Origin: Desulfocapsa sp.
GTDB taxonomy: Bacteria; Desulfobacterota; Desulfobulbia; Desulfobulbales; Desulfocapsaceae
Length of the DNA stretch: 55,358 nucleotides
Direction: 5' to 3'
Assembly: GCA_030145625.1 (NCBI GenBank)
Contig: JAQYVF010000023.1
Location: 1-55,358, forward strand
The position numbers and the translations under genes are program-made. The notes under the pieces were generated by a model that had not been told where the DNA came from, did no database searches, and worked only from the letters and a program-made list of their open reading frames with translations. Below are positions 7,279 to 52,895 of the stretch, one piece after another (positions within the stretch are counted from its first letter, which is position 1; every line of letters starts with the position of its first letter).

Positions 7279-8952
7279 ATGAATATCCTCCGCAATATTC
7301 GCAGTAAAATATTGGCCTGTGGCAGTGTGGCCCTCTTGAGTTACCTTGCTGCCACTCTGGCTACCACCTGGGTGAATAACGAAACTAAACTGTCCATCAC
7401 CCACGTACAACAGGTCGACCTGCCTCTCTCCTCTAAAGGAATCCTTGTTCACAGTCTCTTTAACACCCAAAGTAAAAAATATGAAAACGGCCTGCTCACC
7501 GGTGAACCGAGAGAAGTCAGCCAGGCAAATATGCTCCATAAGCAGATAGCTCCCCTGCTTGATGAGTTGGCGAGGCTGGTCAATGCCAACCATGATGACA
7601 TCTACCCTCATATCCTTGCCCTGCGCGATGCTTACAACAATTATTTTGTCATGGCCTCTCAATATTACATGGAGGCGGTGCAAAAGGGTGATATCTTTGC
7701 CTCCCGCAATGAAGTCCATCAGCTTGGAAAACTCCAAACCGACCTCAATGCCAACTTCAAAGAGGTTACCGGGGAATTGCAGGAGATGATCGTCGCGGAC
7801 CTTGAAAGAAATAACCAGCGTATTGATCGTTATACCCGGTTACTCCACATCTTTTTCATCCTCTGCCTCCTGATCACAATCATGGTAATTAACTGGCTCG
7901 CCAATAAGGAAATCATCGCTCCTCTGGAGAAAATCAAAACGATGATTGGTGATTTCAGTTGCGGCAGAATTATCCAAAAGCCACAGAGCAGCCTGGGAAG
8001 AGATGAGATTCAGGAACTGGCAAACTCCTTCTGGCAGATGACTCGCGAGCTTAAGCTCATAACCGTATCTCGGGACTATGTTGATAATATCATAAACAAT
8101 ATGTCCGACTCACTCATTATCTTAAGTCCCGACCTGACCATTGAGACCGCCAACCATGCGGCTCTGACCCTCCTCCATTTCTCAAAAGAGGAATTGGAAG
8201 GATGTTCCTTCCGAAATATCTTCCGCCATCATGAAGAAACCGTTACCACTTCTCTCTTTCATGGCTTTCTTGAGGGCAAGGCGGTTGTCAACCTTGAGGC
8301 CCTTTATATTGACTACGAGGGACAACCTATTCCAGTTCTTTTTTCAGCCAGTGCCCTCTACCTTCCCGATGGCTCTCTGCAGGGTATTTCCTGTATGGCC
8401 CGTGATATCAGCGAACTGAAAGAACAACGAGATGAGCTGGAATTCCTGGCCAATTTTGATAAACTCACCGGTCTGCCTAACCGCAATCTCTTTTTTGACC
8501 GCCTGACATTGACAATAAACGAGGCCAAACGGTATGGGCATATCTTTGCCCTCTTCTATCTTGATCTCGATAATTTCAAACCTCTCAATGACAAGTATGG
8601 ACATGAGGCCGGAGATCTTGCCCTGCAAGAGGTGGCAAGACGCCTGCAGAATACAGTACGAGAATCCGACACTGTGTCCAGACTGGGTGGCGACGAGTTC
8701 ACCGTCCTGCTGAGCAGGGTTCAAAACAGTGAAGATGCCACAAAGGTGGCCATCAAAATTCTGGACACCATTAGCAAACCATTCCTTATCCATGGAAACC
8801 AGAACACTCTGGGAGTCAGTATCGGTATTTGTCTCTCCTCTCCTGAGCTCACCAGTGCGGACAAGCTGATAAAAAATGCAGATACGGCCATGTACGCTGC
8901 CAAAGCGCAGGGCCGCAACTGTTTCATCATTTCCGCCCCGGATCAAGAGTAA
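7279..8952 (+). CDS. Membrane diguanylate cyclase (HAMP-PAS-GGDEF)
   Basis: A 557-residue protein predicted to make c-di-GMP from two GTP. A membrane helix (about 10-28), a ~155-residue mostly helical periplasmic domain and a second helix (about 187-206) lead to HAMP (about 208-262), a PAS domain (about 268-385, ending in the PAC-like GISCMARDISELKE) and a GGDEF domain. The active-site motif GGDEF (470-474) is intact; RESD at 461-464, five residues upstream, is a canonical RxxD inhibitory site, so product feedback is expected. As the last gene of the kinase/regulator/porin/PstS-like operon, it suggests that the same periplasmic signal is sent both to sigma-54 transcription and to c-di-GMP. 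Confidence 0.93.
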   Translation: MNILRNIRSKILACGSVALLSYLAATLATTWVNNETKLSITHVQQVDLPLSSKGILVHSLFNTQSKKYENGLLTGEPREVSQANMLHKQIAPLLDELARLVNANHDDIYPHILALRDAYNNYFVMASQYYMEAVQKGDIFASRNEVHQLGKLQTDLNANFKEVTGELQEMIVADLERNNQRIDRYTRLLHIFFILCLLITIMVINWLANKEIIAPLEKIKTMIGDFSCGRIIQKPQSSLGRDEIQELANSFWQMTRELKLITVSRDYVDNIINNMSDSLIILSPDLTIETANHAALTLLHFSKEELEGCSFRNIFRHHEETVTTSLFHGFLEGKAVVNLEALYIDYEGQPIPVLFSASALYLPDGSLQGISCMARDISELKEQRDELEFLANFDKLTGLPNRNLFFDRLTLTINEAKRYGHIFALFYLDLDNFKPLNDKYGHEAGDLALQEVARRLQNTVRESDTVSRLGGDEFTVLLSRVQNSEDATKVAIKILDTISKPFLIHGNQNTLGVSIGICLSSPELTSADKLIKNADTAMYAAKAQGRNCFIISAPDQE

Positions 8953-26453: not shown

Positions 26454-27632
26454 ATGTCCTCATTCAACCACCCCTCTTCGTTCTCCAACCTGCAGCAAGA
26501 TATTCTTTCTTCTCTCAGCAGTGCCCCCGGAGACAGCAAAACCCAATGTCAACACCTGCAACCCCTCTTAAAGAAAAAGAAAAAAGAAGTCTGTAAAATC
26601 ATTCTCTACAACCTGGTCCAACTGAATTTTACTCAGGATAATAGCTGTGAACACTGGGATGCCATTGTCCAACATGCCCAAAAACTGCAGACAACCCTCA
26701 AACGAAAGGTTGGCTTGGCAACTGTTGCCTGTGACTATTTCAGCACAATCAACCCCTGCCTGGACAATCCAAAGCTGATAGAGTTCGCCAGGCTTGAGGA
26801 AACTCTGAAATCTGCCCACCATGATTTCCTAACCGGTTTACTGAGCCGAGAGGCCTTTCAAAATTTCTTCGAACAGGAGATCTCCAGAGCCACCCGACAC
26901 GGCCAGAACACCACCCTGGTCTTCTTTGATCTGGACAAGTTTAAAACAATCAATGATACACATGGCCATCTTATCGGGGACAAGGTGCTGAAACAGGTTG
27001 GAAAAATAATCCTTGATTCAAAACGGAAGGAAGATATGGCCTGTCGCTTTGGAGGGGATGAGTTCCTTCTTCTTCTCCCTGAGACCAGTAAATCAATGGC
27101 CATACGTGTCAGCAAAAAGATCCATAAACAGCTCAACAACCTGACCATTGTCCATGAAGAACAACCTATCCATGTTCGTTGTAGCGGTGGCCTGGCCTCT
27201 TTTCCCCTCGACAGTAACACAGGTAGGGGGATAATGGACTGCGCAGACCAGGCCCTGTATCAGGCCAAGAGCAGAGGGACCCATCAACTCATCCATTATG
27301 CCAAAGAAAAACGGACCTACTCAAGAAACGACTTTGAAAAAAGTATCTGCATCTACTCCACTGAGAAAAAGAAGAATATAAATAACAGTAAGGCGAAGAA
27401 CATCAGTGAAGGAGGACTCCTCATCTCCAGTGACACTGCGTATTCCATCGGAACACACCTGGAACTGGAAATTCCTCTGCAAGATGCATCTCCTCTTACC
27501 GTCACTGGTTCAGTAGTACGGATAGAACAGTTCGGCCCCCGGAATTTCGATCTGGCCTTATGTTTTTTCCTCTCCGACGGCAGCGCTACCAAAGCCATAG
27601 CCGATTACATACTGCAAAAACGTGCCCGTTAA
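26454..27632 (+). CDS. Cytoplasmic diguanylate cyclase with C-terminal PilZ domain
   Basis: A 392-residue soluble protein. An N-terminal helical region (1-130) leads to a GGDEF domain starting at DFLTGLLSREAF, with FFDLDKFKTIND, intact GGDEF at 200-204 and an RxxD inhibitory site RKED at 191-194. Residues ~300-390 are PilZ-like: RTYSR fits RxxxR and NISEGG fits (D/N)xSxxG, the two c-di-GMP binding elements. The protein may therefore both make and bind c-di-GMP, or be tuned by it. First of three plus-strand genes that end in an HD-GYP phosphodiesterase, so synthesis, binding and breakdown are encoded together. Confidence 0.92.
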   Translation: MSSFNHPSSFSNLQQDILSSLSSAPGDSKTQCQHLQPLLKKKKKEVCKIILYNLVQLNFTQDNSCEHWDAIVQHAQKLQTTLKRKVGLATVACDYFSTINPCLDNPKLIEFARLEETLKSAHHDFLTGLLSREAFQNFFEQEISRATRHGQNTTLVFFDLDKFKTINDTHGHLIGDKVLKQVGKIILDSKRKEDMACRFGGDEFLLLLPETSKSMAIRVSKKIHKQLNNLTIVHEEQPIHVRCSGGLASFPLDSNTGRGIMDCADQALYQAKSRGTHQLIHYAKEKRTYSRNDFEKSICIYSTEKKKNINNSKAKNISEGGLLISSDTAYSIGTHLELEIPLQDASPLTVTGSVVRIEQFGPRNFDLALCFFLSDGSATKAIADYILQKRAR

Positions 27633-34712: not shown

Positions 34713-34830
34713 TCAACAGGGAAATACCCCTGAAAATTAAAGGGAAGTTTTTAGGATCGCTTAAGGGAACCTTGAATGAAAGAACGCTGAATCCAGACAG
34801 AGGAAGGGAAAAAGAGACAGCAAAAGGCGA

Positions 34831-34930
34831 TGTCGGCTTCCCTTCGCCAGTATGACCTGGATCAGGTTCCAGGGGTCGAAACTTATCAGTTTCCTCTCAG
34901 CCGATAAAAATCGGCTCCCCCAGTCCGTCT
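34831..34930 (-). promoter_or_regulatory. TPP riboswitch (THI element)
   Basis: On the minus strand the conserved THI-box order is present: GGGGGAGCC, GGCTGAGAGG (34891-34902), GACCCCTGGAACCTGATC (34860s-34877) and TACTGGCGAAGGGAAG (34838-34853). It lies ~120 nt before the thiZ start. TPP binding is expected to lower expression of the thiZ-thiX-thiY-thiD operon; I see no clear terminator hairpin after it, so control may be of translation. Confidence 0.95.
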
Positions 34931-34960
34931 AGTACGCTGCAACAAAGTTGCTGAAAAGCA

Positions 34961-35064: not shown

Positions 35065-36234
35065 TCAGGGAAAAAACGTCAGGAGTGGTTCCTGTTTTTT
35101 TAAATCCTTAAGAGAATAATGTGTCCCCCGCCAGTCAATACCCTGATTGACAAGGGTTGTCCAGACCGCTTGCATCACTATATAAACAATAAAATACGGG
35201 GTAATAAGAGACCAGGGCAAAGAAGTGCGCCGCACTTTCATGCCGCCGGCATTGCATAAAAAGACTCCAAAACGACACAGCATGGTGAGTCCAAAAAAGA
35301 TCCTGGCCGTTCCCTGAGCCAGAAACAGTCCCCAAAATGGAACAATGGTCATCACCACAATCCCGAGAATACCGACAGCAGCATAGGCGACTCGATAGCT
35401 ATAGAGGGCAAAGATATTTTTCATCAGACCACGGACCATCTCAGCAACAGTCTCATACCACCGAACCTGGACGAAATCTCCGCCAAGCAGACAGTCCTGG
35501 CTCAATCCCTGCTCTTTTACCTTCTTCCCCAGCATAATATCATCAATGGGATGCATTTTCAGGGTCGCATGGCCCCCCAGTTTCCAGTAAGCATCCCGGC
35601 TGATCATATTAAAGGCACCCACCCCGATAAAAGCCCTGCTGTCTGAATTTCTGACATTCCAGGGTTTGAGGAGAAGAAAAAGACCACCCAGGGCATCGAC
35701 CACCATTGCGTTAAGCAGTCCTCCCTGTGCCACATTACGAAAGATCAGGGAAAGATGGTCCAGCCCTTCACCAACAAAATAAGCCACAGCGCGACTGAGG
35801 GTGGATGGCTCCATGACAATATCAGCATCGGTAAAGAGCAGGATCTGCCCCCGAGCCTGCATTGCTCCCCAATACAGGGCATGATTTTTGCCGAGCCATC
35901 CCGAAGGAAGTTCCGTTATCTGCTCCACCCGGATCTCTGGAAACTCCAGCCCCAAAGCTGTAAGGAGCGCGTAGGTCCCGTCTGTGGAACGATCATCGAT
36001 AATGATGATCTCCAGGTTCGAGTAGTCCTGTTGCAACAGAGAACGCAGAGCGGGCTCCAAGGTTGTCTCTTCGTTACAGGCAGGCACAATGATGGAGACA
36101 AGAGGCGTTTCCAGGGAATCATCCGGCTGCACAGCCCCCAGACTTTTCATCTTCCGGCTCCCCAAGAAGATCTGGAACAAGGTGCAGAGACTCAGGAGAA
36201 AGAGAAAAAAGGAAAAAATTGTCAAAAAAGACAT
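35065..36234 (-). CDS. Membrane-associated family 2 glycosyltransferase
   Basis: A 389-residue GT-A enzyme. An N-terminal membrane helix (FLTIFSFFLFLLSLCTLFQI) precedes the catalytic domain: SIIVPACNEETTLEPAL, IIIIDDRSTDGT (nucleotide-sugar Asp pair), FTDADI (the DxD-like metal motif), then HPIDDIMLGKKVKEQG and QVRWYET (the QxxRW-like acceptor/processivity segment). Three to four C-terminal helices follow (about 270-370). It resembles hopanoid-associated HpnB and other lipid or exopolysaccharide glycosyltransferases; acceptor and sugar are not determined. It is 133 bp downstream of the beta-helix gene on the same strand. Confidence 0.88.
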   Translation of the reverse strand: MSFLTIFSFFLFLLSLCTLFQIFLGSRKMKSLGAVQPDDSLETPLVSIIVPACNEETTLEPALRSLLQQDYSNLEIIIIDDRSTDGTYALLTALGLEFPEIRVEQITELPSGWLGKNHALYWGAMQARGQILLFTDADIVMEPSTLSRAVAYFVGEGLDHLSLIFRNVAQGGLLNAMVVDALGGLFLLLKPWNVRNSDSRAFIGVGAFNMISRDAYWKLGGHATLKMHPIDDIMLGKKVKEQGLSQDCLLGGDFVQVRWYETVAEMVRGLMKNIFALYSYRVAYAAVGILGIVVMTIVPFWGLFLAQGTARIFFGLTMLCRFGVFLCNAGGMKVRRTSLPWSLITPYFIVYIVMQAVWTTLVNQGIDWRGTHYSLKDLKKQEPLLTFFP

Positions 36235-36367: not shown

Positions 36368-37303
36368 CTAAAAACACGCAATGTTCAATGCAGCAAAATT
36401 CACATCATAGGCCCCAACACAGGTTAATCCAATGCCGGCCACTGCTCCATCCAGCAAAGTACCAGCGACTTTGGCCTTGGCATCGACGCCCTGGGTTACA
36501 ATACTTTTCACTCCCTTTAAAGTAGAATTTTTTATCGTTACCAAAGAGGAAGTGCCCTCAATCAATACTGCCGCGGTGTACTGCCCCCCTGACGCAGTGG
36601 CAGTCACATTGGTCATCGTCGGGGAAGAGTTGTTATTGTCCACAGCATAGGAAGAGCCTGTCCCGGACGCAGTAGTAGTGGTCACCTTCACATTGCTCAT
36701 CGTCGGTGAGGAGGAGGTGGTGTTATCCACACCTCTGGCGTTAGCTTCCGAGGACACAGTAACACTCATATGAGTCATCGTTGGTGAAGAAGAGGAATTG
36801 AGCACACCATAGCAGTACAATCCGGAAACACTGACGGTCACATCTTGAATGACCGGTGAGCTGTTTTCATTCCAGATACCGGATGAATAATTAGTAGGTC
36901 CGGTATTTTCTACAGTCAGGTCACTCAGGGTGGCGTGATCGGCTCCGGAGATGATGGCGGTGCTGGCATCAAACGAATAAGCCCAGATTGCACCGGTCAG
37001 CTTGGTGCTCTGTTCCCCAGTACCGATAACAGAGACATACTCCTTCATCACCAGAGTCTCCGTCATGGTATATACTCCCGGACCAATCAACACCACATAG
37101 GGATTAGAAGCGCTGGCATTGGTAATAGAGTTAACCGCAGCCACAGGATTGGTAAAATCCCCACCCTGCGCGGAAACAGTCACAACATTTGCCAGTTTCT
37201 TGGCAGAATTAAGCGGAATAACAACCGCTTTATTGTGGGCGGCCGCTACCGACAGTGAAAAACAAATCGTGAGAAACACAAAAACAGTCGTTACACATTT
37301 CAT
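36368..37303 (-). CDS. Secreted right-handed beta-helix protein
   Basis: A 311-residue exported protein from the ATG at 37303 (GGAAGAG upstream). A signal peptide (cleaved after VAAA) is followed by a ~100-residue cap shared with the neighbour (VVTVSAQGGDF, NPYVVLIGPGVYTMTETLVMKEYVSVIGTG) and then repeated ~25-residue coils with the N(S/T)SSPTM.NV..T. pattern. The cap resembles the pectin-lyase-fold start of carbohydrate esterases/pectinesterases, but no catalytic Asp/Arg set is evident. It is probably a surface or adhesin-like structural protein. It lies 92 bp downstream of the frameshifted paralogue and behind the same c-di-GMP riboswitch. Confidence 0.85.
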   Translation of the reverse strand: MKCVTTVFVFLTICFSLSVAAAHNKAVVIPLNSAKKLANVVTVSAQGGDFTNPVAAVNSITNASASNPYVVLIGPGVYTMTETLVMKEYVSVIGTGEQSTKLTGAIWAYSFDASTAIISGADHATLSDLTVENTGPTNYSSGIWNENSSPVIQDVTVSVSGLYCYGVLNSSSSPTMTHMSVTVSSEANARGVDNTTSSSPTMSNVKVTTTTASGTGSSYAVDNNNSSPTMTNVTATASGGQYTAAVLIEGTSSLVTIKNSTLKGVKSIVTQGVDAKAKVAGTLLDGAVAGIGLTCVGAYDVNFAALNIACF

Positions 37304-37395
37304 TCTCTTCCCCCATATACTGATATAAAAAATGACAAAGTACGTCCCAACCCTTCTCCGGGACAAAACGTTGTCTTCTAACTACTCCCGGCAGC

Positions 37396-38435
37396 CTATA
37401 AACTTGATAGTTGACAGGTGTCAAGCAAGGCCGTAGCCACACCATTATCTGAATTGACACAGGTTAACGTTCCACTATCCTTCGTCACCCCACCAAGAAT
37501 GGACGACTGCATAACCCGAATGATACCACCGCCCACATATATTCCACCATCACTGCCCTCCAGCGTACAATGCCGGGTAGTGATCGTATTATCCGAACCG
37601 AGAGAGTTAAAAATACCGTAATTGGACGTCCCCCCGGATGCACTGGTGGTCACATTACTCAGACGAAGAGAGGAAGAACCAGTGTTGGTTACACCATGGG
37701 TATTCATTTCCCCGCCGAATGCGCGAGCAGTGACGTTAACCATACTCGGTGAAGAGGAGGTATTCCATATACCATAGCTATATCTTCCCCCGGATGCACT
37801 GGCGCTTACGTTGTTCATTCTTGGAGAAGAGGAGCCATTATACACACCCCAGTTATTTACCCCCCCGGATGCGCTAGCGGTCACGTTGATCATAGTCGGA
37901 GAGGAGGAGGTGTTAAACACACCACTGCAGTAGGCCCCCCCCGATGCGCTGGCGGTCACATTCTGAATGAGTGGTGAACTGTGTTGCTATTGTAAAGAGC
38001 AAACCAAATTGACGAGCTGCCAGCGTCGGGATTGATGTTTTCTAGGGTGAGATCACTCAGAACAGCATTGTCGGCTCCGGAAACAAGAGCAGAGTTCGCA
38101 TCAAGAGAACCGCCACCTATTGCGCCGGTCAGTTTGGTACTCTGCTCCCCTGTCCCCATGACGGAGACATACTCCTTCATCACCAGGGTCTCGGTCAGGG
38201 TATATATTCCCGGACCAATCAGTACCACATAGGGATTGGAAGGTCCGGCATCGCTAATGGAATTAACCGCTGCCACAGGGTCAGTAAAATCACCGCCCTG
38301 TGCAGAAACAGTCACCACATGTGCCAGTTTCCTGGCCGAATTGATTGGAATGATGACCACATTGTCATGGGCAGCTGCTACTGAGAGTGAAGAACAAGCC
38401 ATGAAGACCGCAAGAACAGACACAAGCCATTTCAT
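37396..38435 (-). pseudogene. Secreted beta-helix protein, paralogue of the next gene, split by a 2-bp frameshift
   Basis: The first frame (38435-37956) starts at an ATG with GGAGGG upstream and encodes a signal peptide and the cap domain. It goes out of frame at about 37980, where AGCAACACAGTTCACC has one extra AC compared with the expected AGC AAC AGT TCA CC. Beyond it the second frame (to 37396) continues with SSPLIQNVTASASGG and four to five ~25-residue coils (N.SSSP.M.NV.ASASGG). Restoring the frame gives ~345 residues, similar to the downstream paralogue. It could be a true pseudogene, a dinucleotide slippage switch or a sequence error. It is the first gene behind the c-di-GMP riboswitch. 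Confidence 0.82.
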
Positions 38436-38459
38436 ACTCTACCCTCCATATAGTCACAT

Positions 38460-38499
38460 AAAAAAAGCCGAGTTGTCACAAAATTCTGACAACCCGGCT
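38460..38499 (-). terminator. Intrinsic terminator of the c-di-GMP riboswitch
   Basis: On the minus strand AGCCGGGTTGTCA pairs with TGACAACTCGGCT (one G-T mismatch) and is followed by seven T. It sits between the aptamer and the start codon at 38435, and its left arm is also the 3' end of the aptamer, the usual arrangement for a transcription switch. Confidence 0.88.
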
Positions 38500-38556
38500 A
38501 TCTGCGAAAGACCCGTGGCTTTCCGTCCCTGCTTTACAACAGGTTTGGCTTTTCTA
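38490..38556 (-). ncRNA. Cyclic-di-GMP-I riboswitch (GEMM-I)
   Basis: On the minus strand the GEMM-I core is present: AAGCCAAACC, a hairpin CCTGTT-GTAA-AGCAGG capped by a GNRA (GUAA) tetraloop, GGGACGGAAAGCC, then CACGGGTCT and AGATAGCCGGGTTG. Against the consensus (GGCAAACC and GACGCAAAGCC) positions 21 and 46, which pair, are C and G instead of G and C, so the pair is kept. Position 20 is G, as in c-di-GMP binders rather than the A20 cGAMP variants. Because the terminator left arm is part of the aptamer, ligand binding should prevent termination (an ON switch), which is inference. It controls the two beta-helix genes. Confidence 0.85.
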
Positions 38557-38562
38557 ATTGAC

Positions 38563-38592
38563 ACTATATTGCAAAAATGGCATGGGTGTCAA
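38563..38592 (-). promoter_or_regulatory. Sigma-70 promoter of the riboswitch / beta-helix operon
   Basis: On the minus strand TTGACA (38587-38592) and TATAGT (38563-38568) are 18 bp apart. The implied start point, near 38555, is at the first base of the riboswitch aptamer. Confidence 0.75.
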
Positions 38593-47990: not shown

Positions 47991-50900
47991 ATGATAAAAA
48001 AACACAAAATTTGTTGGTTCAGGGGAAATGTATTTTCCACTCTGCTATGGACAGCTCTTCTTATACTCTCTACCAGTTGCAATCAGAGTATGGCCAGTAC
48101 GCTTCGCATAGATACCGGTTTTACTCCTACTTTTACTGATAACTTCCAAGGAGATTTTGTCTATATCAATGGCATCCGGGAACAAAAAGATGGGAAAGTC
48201 CTGGTCGCCGGCTGGTTTGACAATGTTAATGGCACCAGTCGCCGCAGCATTGCCCGAGTCAACGGCAATGGTTCATTGGATTTAAGCTACAACCCAGGAA
48301 GCGGTGTCGACAATGAGATCAAAACTATCGGCCTGCAGACAGATGACCGCGCAATCCTGGCCGGTTATTTTGATAGCGTAAACAGTGTCAGCAAAAAAAA
48401 TCTGGCCAGACTCAATCTTGACGGTTCCCTTGACACCTCTTTCACTGCCCGGGCCGACTCACCGATCTGGGCCATGGATATTTTAGACGACATCATTACC
48501 ATTGGCGGCCAGTTTTCGGAAGTTAATGCTTTCGGACGGGAAAATGTAGCCCGCTTAAATGCTAATGGCAGTCTTGACAGCACCTTTAATCCTTACGCAG
48601 GTGTAACCTCTGGAGGCGGCACTCATTGGGTCCGCGCCGTGGCCACCATCCCCACCATTATCGATTTACTTGGCACGCGAGCCGACAAGGTCCTGGTGGG
48701 AGGCGATTTCACCTCGTTTAATTACGCTCCCTACAAAGGGCTGGTCCGCCTGACCAACACCGGTACCGTGGACACCTCCTTTTCCATAGGCTCCGGCTTT
48801 AACGATAACAGCATGGTTACCTCCCTGGCCGTCCAACCCGATGGCAACTATCTCGTCGGCGGAACCTTTATCAGCTTTAATGGGACGCCCCGTTATAGAA
48901 TTGCCCGCCTCCTCAGTACAGGCGCCTTAGATACCTCCTTTAACTGCGTGGTCAACGGCGGCTATGGAGAGGTTGACTCCATAGCCCTGCAGGAGGACGG
49001 CAGGATTGTTATCGGCGGTAATTTTACCACGGTAAACGGGATGGCCAGAATGAATGTGGCCCGCCTGAACCCGGACGGCAGCCTCGACATGGAGTTCAAT
49101 CCCGGTGCCGGTACCGACGCCACTGTGAAAACCGTTGTCTCCACAGGCCAGGGTCAGATTCTCCTTGGCGGCTTTTTCACTTCGGTAAACGGTGAAAGTC
49201 GTGCACATGTGGCCCGCTTCAACGGCGATCCATCCATGGCCGGCGGAGCAGCCAATCCCTACACCGTCTTTGCAGGGGGCAAGGATGACTGGAAGCAAAT
49301 CAATCTGCCCAGGCCCACCGTAAATAGTGGCACCCTCGACCTGCTGGTTGAAGGTACACTCTATTACCTTTCAACCGTGGGTCCGCCAATCTACCTTCAT
49401 CTCACCTATAATTCCAACCAGCATAAACCTTCTTCAATCAGTTTTGGCAATCGATGGAGCTTTCTCTATGAATCCTCAATTCTTCGCCAAAGTACCAACC
49501 AGATCCTTCTCCGCAAAGGCACAGGTGAACAGGAGACCTATACCAGCCTGATCAATCTGACCAGTGCAACCCCAATCGCCCCCGTCACTCTGAGTCCTGT
49601 AAAAGGGAAATTCAATCAGCTGATCTGTTATGGAACCTATTGGGAATACATAGAAAAAGACACCGGCTACACTTACAGATTTGACGAACTGAGTTCCGCC
49701 CTGCCTGCCTATCTGACCAGTATCAGCGACCGAAACGCCAATACCGTGACCATTACCACAGACCTCAACACAGGCCGTATCCAGAAGATTATCGGGCCCG
49801 CCAACAGAGAGATCAGTTTTACCTATACCCCCGCCGGCTATTGCAGCAAGATCACGGTGCCGGATGGACGAACAGTTGAGTTTCTCTACGATGGATTCGG
49901 ACAACTCGTCCAGGTCAAGGACATGATTGGCTACCTTGGAAAATACACCTATGATAACGGCTTAATAACAAAAAGTGACTTGGGTGGTTACGGTTCCACC
50001 GGCGGTGGACATGAAATGACCTTCACCTACGGTGACAAGACCTGGGGGAACGGAAAATATGTCTCCGCAACCCAGTCGGCAATGGGCAAGACCCTGATTG
50101 CACCGATTAACAACAGTATCAATCAGGTGCGATGGACCGACCCCCGGGGCCAGGTGACAACCATGAAGACAGAAAACGGAAGAACCACCGGTGTTGTTGA
50201 TCCATCCGGGGCTAACCGTTCTTTGAGTTATGTGGAAGGCATGCTCAGCAAGTACACCAGCGGCACAGGGCAAAACACCTCTTTTGAGTATGACAGCCGT
50301 GGCAATACCACAGGGTCCACCGATGCCACGGGCAAAAAAACCAGCTATTTTTACGATTCCAAAAACAACCTGATCCAACGTCGAGACGCCCTGGGAAACA
50401 CTACAATTTTTGATTACGACGGAGACAACAACCTGATACGGGTCCGCTATCCCAATAGTACTGCTCTAAATTTTGCTTTCTCCCCCAAGGGACAATTAAC
50501 GACGTATACCAATGCACGAGGAAAAATCACCAGCTATGCATACGACAGCTACGGCAATCTGTTAACAATCACGTCACCGGATGGTGGCATTGTCACCTAT
50601 ACCTACGGGAGTACAGACAAATACAGTCGCTGTTATAAGACCACCGATAGCCGTGGCAATCAAAAGACATACTCCTATGACAAAAACAACAGAATTACCG
50701 CGGTATCTTATGGCGCTAGCATCCCCTATGATGCCCAGGTACGCTATACCTATAACGCACTGGATCTCCTCTCAGCAACAGATGAGCTGGGCAAAACAAC
50801 GCGGGTACAGCGCAATGACAATTCCCAGATTACCTGGATCTTTGATCCACTGAACAGGGCAACACAATTTCAATACGACCCCAATGGCAATCTGACCAAA

Positions 50901-52895
50901 CAGATCAACCCCCTGGGCCAGAGTATCAAAACCAGTTATAACGCATCCAGCCGGCCTGTTCAAACCACTGACCCCATGAACAAAACCCTGCTGAGGAACT
51001 ATGACCCAGAGGGCAACCTGCTCTACTTAAGAGATGCCAATTACAACACCACCAATTTCACCTATGATGCCAATAATCGCCTGAAGACCATCAGAAATCC
51101 CCTGGACCAGACTATCACCAAGACCTACGATGCTCTGGGACAGGAGACCGAGACGGAAAACAACCGCGGGATCAAGGTAATCCGCGAATATGACAAAGTC
51201 GGCAATGTAGTCAGAAAATCATATGATGGTTCGATACAGGTCGATTATGCTTATGATGCCTCCAACAATCTCCTTTCTTCCGACCACACCACCCTGGGCA
51301 CAAAAACCTATACCTATAATGACAGCGGCAGGGTAGCGACCATCACCTGGCCGGACTCCAAAAGCGTCTCCTTTCTGTATAACAGTGAAGGACATGTCAC
51401 CTCTACAACCTATCCTGACGGCCTGGCTGTTTCCTATTCCTATGACAGCTTCTGTCGTCGTAAACTGCCTTCCGAATTCCGACATGGTCCCCCCGATGAT
51501 GTCAGCCCTCACAAAGAAAAAAAGAACCAGGTAACCACCATGTCCTGGCCAGGCGGTTCGCTTTCCCTACAATACGACAAGGCCGGTAATCTCCTGGAGG
51601 AAAACAGATCCAACGGTACCGTTTCCAGCTACCTCTATGATGTGAACCGCAAAATCACTGCCATCAATCACAAGTATGGGACTACCAGTTTCCTCAGTAT
51701 CAATAATATCTATGATGACGCGGGCAGACGCCTTTCCTCCCTTGACAGTCAGTCCATGACCCCTCCCCTCCCTGCCGGCGCGGCGAACATCAGCTATGAC
51801 AATGCGAACCAGATGCTTTCCTATGGTTCCACCAATTTCAGCAATGATGCAGACGGGAACGTGACAGCCATCGGCGGCTCATTTGCCGCAAGCTATGACG
51901 CGGAGAACCGACCCGTCACCACCATCAACGGAGCGACCACCACCTACTCCTTTGATGGCGAGGGGAATCCCTACCGTATTGTCAAAAACGGCGTTACTCA
52001 GTACTACCACTTTGATCATGGAGGAAGGCTGTTATTTATCAGTGACTTTACCGGCAACATGGTCTCCCGTTTCCTCTACCGGGGCAATCGCCTGGTCGCC
52101 CAACAGGCCCAAAACAGCCTATGGTATTTTTATCATTTCAGTACAAACGGCAACACCCTCGCCATGACCAAAAGTGATGGCACAGTGGTGGCCGAATATG
52201 CCTATTCACCCCATGGCCTGTATACCTCACTGGGAACCCCACCCTATAATCCCTTTACCTTTGCCGGTCAGTTCGGTGTCCTGCAACAGGAAGGTGATAT
52301 TTTCCTCATGACAAACCGAATGTATATGGCCACAACCGGCCGTTTCCTGCAACGAGACCCGCTGGGATTGACCGGAGGCGTGAATCTTTACGTCTATGCC
52401 GGGAATAATCCCGTGGGCTACGTTGACCCCCAGGGAACATTTGAACTGGACCCCGGCGACATCGACGAGGCCCCGCAGACTTCCGAAGGCACGGCTGACC
52501 TGGACACCGAGGAACTCCCTTATCACACGGATGAGGGTATTGATCCGGAAACCGCAGATGCGATTGCCGAAACGGTTGATGACGCACTGGCCCTTTATGG
52601 CTCGGTTCCCGGTTCCCCCAATGGCAATTTTGTCAATGCAGCCCGGGCAACCAGAGATGGCAATTACGCCAAGGCAGCCTGGGAAGTCTGCAAGGGTGCC
52701 ATTGGCTGTGCGCCGGGACCTGGCACAGCCATCAATATCGCCATTGATACCACGGAAACGCTTCTGGCAAACGCCAAAGGCAATGGTGGAAAAAAAGTTT
52801 CAGGTGGATATCAAAAGCCTAAGCTCAAATCAAAGGACGGCCGAGATTTATCACGCTATGGATTACGCCAGGAACTTGGAGGCCCGCCAAGGTGA
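47991..52895 (+). CDS. Large exported delta-60 repeat / RHS (YD-repeat) protein
   Basis: A 1634-residue protein. The N terminus has a membrane-spanning signal (LLWTALLILSTSCNQSMAS); it may be a lipoprotein (Cys in STSC, weak lipobox) or be cut after MAS. Residues ~45-415 hold about seven delta-60 beta-propeller units (pattern: DGK.LVGG.F...NG..R..IARL..DGSLDTSF). Residues ~440-1480 are RHS/YD repeats (YDSYGNL, YDANNRL, YDPNGNL) that build a hollow beta shell, closing with FLQRDPLGLTGGVNLYVYAGNNPV then DPQG (~1482). The last ~150 residues are unique, acidic at first and basic at the end, with no nuclease motif I recognise. An odd non-repeat patch (CRRKLPSEFRHGPPDD) lies near residue 1155. It is possibly a polymorphic toxin or a surface adhesin. 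Confidence 0.92.
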   Translation: MIKKHKICWFRGNVFSTLLWTALLILSTSCNQSMASTLRIDTGFTPTFTDNFQGDFVYINGIREQKDGKVLVAGWFDNVNGTSRRSIARVNGNGSLDLSYNPGSGVDNEIKTIGLQTDDRAILAGYFDSVNSVSKKNLARLNLDGSLDTSFTARADSPIWAMDILDDIITIGGQFSEVNAFGRENVARLNANGSLDSTFNPYAGVTSGGGTHWVRAVATIPTIIDLLGTRADKVLVGGDFTSFNYAPYKGLVRLTNTGTVDTSFSIGSGFNDNSMVTSLAVQPDGNYLVGGTFISFNGTPRYRIARLLSTGALDTSFNCVVNGGYGEVDSIALQEDGRIVIGGNFTTVNGMARMNVARLNPDGSLDMEFNPGAGTDATVKTVVSTGQGQILLGGFFTSVNGESRAHVARFNGDPSMAGGAANPYTVFAGGKDDWKQINLPRPTVNSGTLDLLVEGTLYYLSTVGPPIYLHLTYNSNQHKPSSISFGNRWSFLYESSILRQSTNQILLRKGTGEQETYTSLINLTSATPIAPVTLSPVKGKFNQLICYGTYWEYIEKDTGYTYRFDELSSALPAYLTSISDRNANTVTITTDLNTGRIQKIIGPANREISFTYTPAGYCSKITVPDGRTVEFLYDGFGQLVQVKDMIGYLGKYTYDNGLITKSDLGGYGSTGGGHEMTFTYGDKTWGNGKYVSATQSAMGKTLIAPINNSINQVRWTDPRGQVTTMKTENGRTTGVVDPSGANRSLSYVEGMLSKYTSGTGQNTSFEYDSRGNTTGSTDATGKKTSYFYDSKNNLIQRRDALGNTTIFDYDGDNNLIRVRYPNSTALNFAFSPKGQLTTYTNARGKITSYAYDSYGNLLTITSPDGGIVTYTYGSTDKYSRCYKTTDSRGNQKTYSYDKNNRITAVSYGASIPYDAQVRYTYNALDLLSATDELGKTTRVQRNDNSQITWIFDPLNRATQFQYDPNGNLTKQINPLGQSIKTSYNASSRPVQTTDPMNKTLLRNYDPEGNLLYLRDANYNTTNFTYDANNRLKTIRNPLDQTITKTYDALGQETETENNRGIKVIREYDKVGNVVRKSYDGSIQVDYAYDASNNLLSSDHTTLGTKTYTYNDSGRVATITWPDSKSVSFLYNSEGHVTSTTYPDGLAVSYSYDSFCRRKLPSEFRHGPPDDVSPHKEKKNQVTTMSWPGGSLSLQYDKAGNLLEENRSNGTVSSYLYDVNRKITAINHKYGTTSFLSINNIYDDAGRRLSSLDSQSMTPPLPAGAANISYDNANQMLSYGSTNFSNDADGNVTAIGGSFAASYDAENRPVTTINGATTTYSFDGEGNPYRIVKNGVTQYYHFDHGGRLLFISDFTGNMVSRFLYRGNRLVAQQAQNSLWYFYHFSTNGNTLAMTKSDGTVVAEYAYSPHGLYTSLGTPPYNPFTFAGQFGVLQQEGDIFLMTNRMYMATTGRFLQRDPLGLTGGVNLYVYAGNNPVGYVDPQGTFELDPGDIDEAPQTSEGTADLDTEELPYHTDEGIDPETADAIAETVDDALALYGSVPGSPNGNFVNAARATRDGNYAKAAWEVCKGAIGCAPGPGTAINIAIDTTETLLANAKGNGGKKVSGGYQKPKLKSKDGRDLSRYGLRQELGGPPR

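Follow-up and report, generated by a model that had tools for sequence, protein, structure and literature searches.

We found that the minus-strand leader ahead of a gene for a beta-helix-like exported protein in Desulfocapsa sp. is best explained as an ordinary c-di-GMP-I (GEMM-I) transcriptional ON switch with weakened ligand recognition, a switch of which about 19 well-preserved copies occur in the genome; we put the probability of this reading at roughly two in three. The leader lies in an analyzed stretch of 55,358 nucleotides (contig JAQYVF010000023.1 of assembly GCA_030145625.1), referred to below as the window. In the literature searched, including searches on c-di-GMP-I-GGC, GEMM-I variants and C92U and covering few subscription papers, this switch was not described. 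Taken alone, it matters little and belongs to a known kind. The lineage, however, appears to carry numerous c-di-GMP-I ON switches built alike, mostly ahead of exported proteins, which would constitute a regulon.

Layout of the leader and its RNA family

A putative sigma-70-like promoter (TTGACA-18-TATAGT at 38563..38592; 11/12 matches in a consensus scan), the GEMM-I aptamer (38484..38558), an intrinsic terminator (38460..38499, a 13-pair stem at 38499-38466 and then six unpaired T) and the start codon of the exported protein at 38435 follow one another on the minus strand. This is the order that a preliminary description of the DNA had given for promoter, aptamer and terminator. The RF01051 profile search proposed there returned 65.2 bits against a gathering cut-off of 35, and the aptamer also scored above the cut-off of RF03167 (61.6 bits against 59; E 3.7e-12 over the window); the RNA is a member of the GEMM-I family. 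Numbered on the Rfam model alignment, its key positions are G20 (38549), C21 (38548), G46 (38523), A47 (38522) and U92 (38489). Both pocket bases, G20 and A47, are present, and the fold and the Rfam alignment contain P2 and P3, with P2 capped by GUAA, a GNRA loop; the retained G20 and tetraloop had been correctly noted before.

The leader from 38558 to 38466 had a folding energy of -35.8 kcal/mol (z -4.16), and none of 200 shuffles was equally stable. At this length the terminator fold wins, whereas the aptamer alone keeps the GEMM-I fold (P2 with its GUAA loop, P3 and two lower P2 pairs) at -19.3 kcal/mol. The stability of the aptamer alone did not go beyond that of shuffled sequence (z -0.91), and the argument for its reality is therefore the Rfam match and the covariation of its helices across family aptamers, not folding energy. 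These family aptamers are the 77 distinct sequences among 89 rows, which cover the best-listed matches and in a few cases have a gap at position 20 or 21. The genome itself contained 21 RF01051 matches, 20 of them over the cut-off, and 23 RF03167 matches; setting aside the weak L041-L044, which are degenerate copies of 27-39 bits (RF03167), left the 19 strong copies. Among the degenerate copies, L042 has A20 and A46, L043 has A46 and U92, and L044 has C45. It was noted that L038 and L039 (C121:5032-5234) are tandem copies separated by 53 nt; both have a terminator of their own, and a single exported protein is encoded downstream of the pair.

The preliminary description had placed C21-G46 in the aptamer and singled out the swapped pair as noteworthy. 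The assignment was right, and the orientation proved to be ordinary. G20, C21-G46 and A47 were all present in 19/19 strong own copies, and the pair was C-G in 55, G-C in 19, G-U in 1 and gapped in 2 of the 77 distinct family aptamers, covarying freely and broken in none. An exact pattern with C21, G46 and A47 matched at least 114 stretches in the sequence collection, whose titles name Vibrio, Photobacterium, Methylomonas, Sulfurovum, Marinobacter, Acidobacteria and many sulfate reducers, spanning several phyla; 80 of these stretches were scored, giving pattern loci that are by construction selected for C21, G46 and A47. In the structure of the Geobacter cGAMP riboswitch (4YAZ), the available excerpts of PMC6274999 give P2 with C15-G40, with A14, A41 and C75 corresponding to positions 20, 47 and 92, and the pilM paper, as excerpted, places G38 and G39 at the bottom of P2 (PMC9262584). 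The counts in the genome and family, the pattern loci and 4YAZ together make the swap a clade-level orientation of a covarying pair, already in print since at least 4YAZ. It was thus rejected as a novelty, and it gives no sign of an altered ligand.

Terminator overlap and switching direction

The left arm of the terminator is the 3' strand of P3 together with positions 91-94. It begins 16 nt inside the 3' end of the aptamer in the window and 15-21 nt inside it in the strong own copies, so that the preliminary claim of a left arm made from the aptamer's 3' end holds, with a 16-nt overlap and a 13-pair stem. The overlap was found in 19/19 strong own copies and 21/23 own copies in all, in 52/77 family aptamers compared with 6/77 when the downstream DNA was shuffled, and in 35/92 pattern loci compared with 6 after the same shuffling; its partial occurrence among the pattern loci indicates that different platforms are in use elsewhere. 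All strong own copies pair position 92 within the terminator, as C-G in 18 and as U-A in the window, where U92 pairs with the A at 38476. Because position 92 and the 3' strand are shared, aptamer and terminator are mutually exclusive. The compensating change in the terminator indicates that U92 is real and that the terminator has been maintained, and it says nothing in favor of the ligand still being bound.

This mutual exclusion lends support to the ON wiring that had been proposed as probable. Ligand would lock P2, P3 and the 3' strand into the aptamer fold, leaving the left arm of the terminator occupied, and RNA polymerase would read through; without ligand, the 3' strand including position 92 would fold into the terminator. 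From this arrangement we infer a transcriptional ON direction for the window copy. The pilM riboswitch of Geobacter metallireducens has the same architecture: the available excerpts of PMC9262584 describe it as an ON switch, with the counterpart of C92 sequestered in its terminator.

In the window, 14 nt separate the end of the -10 box from G20, compared with 20-30 nt in the eight own copies whose -10 box is convincing; the best-scoring -10 boxes of L032, L035, L037 and L040 are even closer to G20, but their -35 matches are poor. Such spacing would probably place the start site at about 38555-38558, and a promoter this close would leave helix P1 nearly absent. Two P1 pairs are non-standard in the Rfam alignment of the window aptamer, and the P1 pairs G38554-C38488 and AAUU/AAUU need transcription to start at or before 38559. 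A weak or non-canonical P1 is not peculiar to the window copy: a canonical P1 pair is missing in 12/77 family aptamers, and position 93 is A in 7/19 strong own copies. It was also observed that L022, L024, L025 and L031 share an upstream promoter-like sequence (approximately TTGTCA, about 11 nt, and an extended -10; TGATATAAT), which is unlike the TTGACA-18-TATAGT of the window.

Downstream genes and sister copies

The first gene (37396..38435, minus strand) encodes the beta-helix-like exported protein and is frameshifted, with ORFs at 38435-37956 and 37959-37396; its similarity to the paralogue passes from one frame to the other near 38000, as read in both frames and in the DNA. The second gene (36368..37366, minus strand) is an intact, beta-helix-like paralogue with a signal peptide probably from 37303. 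It gave a weak Pect-lyase_RHGA_epim match (26.1 bits, cut-off 27) and an all-beta AlphaFold single-sequence model of low confidence (mean pLDDT 44) that was too poor for structure search, and a sequence search of solved structures returned no match at E 0.01 or better. The sub-threshold match, the repeat pattern and the poor all-beta model support the exported beta-helix targets of the preliminary description as beta-helix-like proteins. A glycosyltransferase family 2 gene (35065..36234, minus strand; PF00535) is possibly in the same transcript, and no minus-strand terminator-like site was listed between 36234 and 36368. The beta-helix protein occurs in 5/60 family genomes, namely its own and four of another genus. 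An orthologous switch-gene pair in relatives was rejected, with no GEMM match in any of the five other-genus loci L295-L299.

We then considered what follows the sister copies. Judged by eye, the first gene after 15/19 strong copies (14 genes, two tandem copies sharing one) has a signal-peptide-like or Tat-like N-terminus; two further first genes are without such an N-terminus and two were not judgeable. An intact beta-helix paralogue follows directly after the degenerate L044, for which no terminator was detected. The gene after L025 looks by eye like a relative of a 1634-aa protein encoded in the window (47991-52895, plus strand) that has a DUF5122 beta-propeller and RHS repeats. The window also contains a TPP riboswitch (34822-34931, minus strand; 74 bits) upstream of a gene for an ABC-transporter ATPase and, further on, one for phosphomethylpyrimidine kinase.

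It was noted that the motif KVVV[IV]PL stands right after the signal peptide and is common to many otherwise different exported proteins (L253-L263 in the own genome and L302-L326 in the family). A degenerate DNA pattern for it had 11 matches in the own genome and none in the control, 9 of the matches being N-terminal by eye, and a GEMM copy lies upstream in 5 of these 9. A stricter pattern matched 21 against 0 in 8 genomes of the genus and 32 against about 20 over the 60 family genomes. The string KVVVIPL was not found in the literature searched, and the motif is perhaps an export or anchoring tag.

Position 92, the probable ligand and related riboswitches

Position 92 is expected to be C, the Watson-Crick partner of the ligand, and the alignment of the window aptamer has U there (38489, minus strand). 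Membership in RF01051 stands by score, whereas the claim of a c-di-GMP sensor is lowered by this base. Position 92 is C in 18/18 other strong own copies and in 77/77 family aptamers, so that among these only the window has U; among pattern-locus aptamers it is C in 91/93, U in 1 and a gap in 1. U92 also occurs in the degenerate own copy L043 (28 bits), and the combination of G20, A47 and U92 occurs in three other aptamers, L051 (Methylomonas methanica) and L332 and L333 from the phylum. These three (L051:4816-4905, L332:1498-1587 and L333:1469-1572) are well-formed GEMM-I aptamers of other bacteria; by eye, L051 and L333 precede genes for apparently exported proteins, and L332 a gene for a flippase-like one. 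A shifted register with C38488 as position 92 is conceivable because P1 hardly fixes the register, and is disfavored because U occupies this place in L051 and L333, whose P1 helices have 3 or 4 pairs on inspection by eye.

The two bases were also surveyed in the phylum with DNA patterns in 395 genomes and backwards controls. The U92 pattern gave 9 matches in 9 genomes (control 2), with 2/9 loci at the Rfam cut-off, and the C92 pattern gave 123 among the matches listed, in 81 genomes (control 2), which were mostly GEMM-like as judged by eye. The own genome scored 0 with both patterns because its P3 loops are shorter than the pattern gap (18-20 against a minimum of 22), and the U92:C92 ratio is rough since such short loops are missed.

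The preliminary description overlooked U92, the apparently near-absent P1 and the frameshifted state of the first gene, all of which bear on function more than the 21-46 swap. U92 makes normal function less certain, not more, and with C92 changed to U, a minimal P1 and a broken first gene, weaker c-di-GMP control would be expected than at the sister copies. The pocket bases G20 and A47 point to c-di-GMP, the usual ligand, as the probable one here. The genome gave 32 GGDEF hits, equal to 31 domains as two hits are pieces of one, and two hits lie inside the window. On the plus strand, the window carries two diguanylate cyclase genes (7279-8952 and 26454-27632), one of PAS-PAS-type GGDEF and one of GGDEF-PilZ architecture. 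No cGAMP-type (Hypr) cyclase was seen in 29/29 domains read, of 31, each with Asp at the probable Hypr Ser position, which was mapped by the residue spacing in PMC6456294.

One rival reading is a decaying switch, in which C92U and the loss of P1 broke ligand binding and a working terminator mainly keeps a broken gene off. The degenerate L043 and L044 demonstrate that such copies decay, and the window copy may be doing so as well; its U92 recurs in the genome only in L043, its first gene is frameshifted, and L044 (27.2 bits), ahead of a beta-helix paralogue, is degenerate with no terminator found by search. However, the window copy retains P2, P3, G20, A47 and its tetraloop, the terminator base opposite position 92 changed in step, the promoter is near consensus, the second gene is intact, and U92 is present in well-formed aptamers elsewhere. 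A C92U mutant of Vc2 has moreover been crystallized (3MUR, 3UD3 and 3UD4, according to the available excerpts of PMC10671752), and we consider decay possible but rather unlikely.

Altered specificity would be another explanation, with the G20/U92 pocket preferring G alpha and A beta, that is 3',3'-cGAMP, reversed relative to the Geobacter A20/C92 riboswitches. Relative to 4YAZ, as covered by the excerpts of PMC6274999, positions 20 and 92 are both exchanged, with C21-G46 and A47 unchanged; the set G20/A47/U92 is found again in L051, L332 and L333; and Vc2 with the double mutation G20A/C92U reportedly binds c-di-AMP, according to a source available in part. The Asp in place of the Hypr Ser (29 of 31 domains), a gene context with nothing pointing to cGAMP, and G-U pairing, which would still permit c-di-GMP, make this reading very unlikely. 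In a related and distinctly doubtful form, the four G20/A47/U92 aptamers, from unrelated settings, might be a rare recurrent natural GEMM-I subtype that prefers a mixed G/A cyclic dinucleotide (e.g., 3',3'-cGAMP in the opposite orientation to the Geobacter class) or has a broadened c-di-GMP/cGAMP range. Such natural U92 copies are in any case ready-made RNAs for asking how GEMM-I specificity drifts. For the 3',3'-cGAMP riboswitches (GEMM-Ib) A20 is diagnostic, and the window has G20 at 38549. True membership in c-di-GMP-I-GGC, an Rfam variant that would bring its own behavior, appears highly improbable: RF03167 is the best match of the window aptamer in Rfam clan competition, but its consensus has G at position 47, where A stands in the RF01051 consensus, in the window aptamer and in each of the 19 strong own copies. 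Taking GGC from the consensus to denote positions 20, 47 and 92, we rejected filing under this variant on A47.

Read as an ordinary c-di-GMP-I ON switch with weakened ligand recognition, the window copy shares features with three known riboswitches, each as described in sources available in part. Vc2 of Vibrio cholerae has the same G20, A47 and P2/P3 fold, and its laboratory C92U mutant (3MUR, 3UD3 and 3UD4) the same U92; unlike the window, Vc2 combines G21-C46 with a strong P1 and works as an OFF switch at the level of translation (PMC9262584). Cd1 of Clostridioides difficile binds its ligand without detectable P1, so that the minimal P1 of the window need not be fatal, but it is an OFF switch in which aptamer and terminator can coexist, unlike in the window (PMC9262584). 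The pilM riboswitch, of the 3',3'-cGAMP class, differs in having A20 and C92 where the window has G20 and U92 (PMC9262584, PMC6274999) and in a P1 that is stable with ligand (PMC9262584), compared with one that appears nearly absent in the window. It resembles the window in C21-G46 at the foot of P2 and in A47 (PMC9262584, PMC6274999), and in an ON wiring whose terminator engages the ligand-pairing base, as the sequence of the window suggests for its own copy (PMC9262584).
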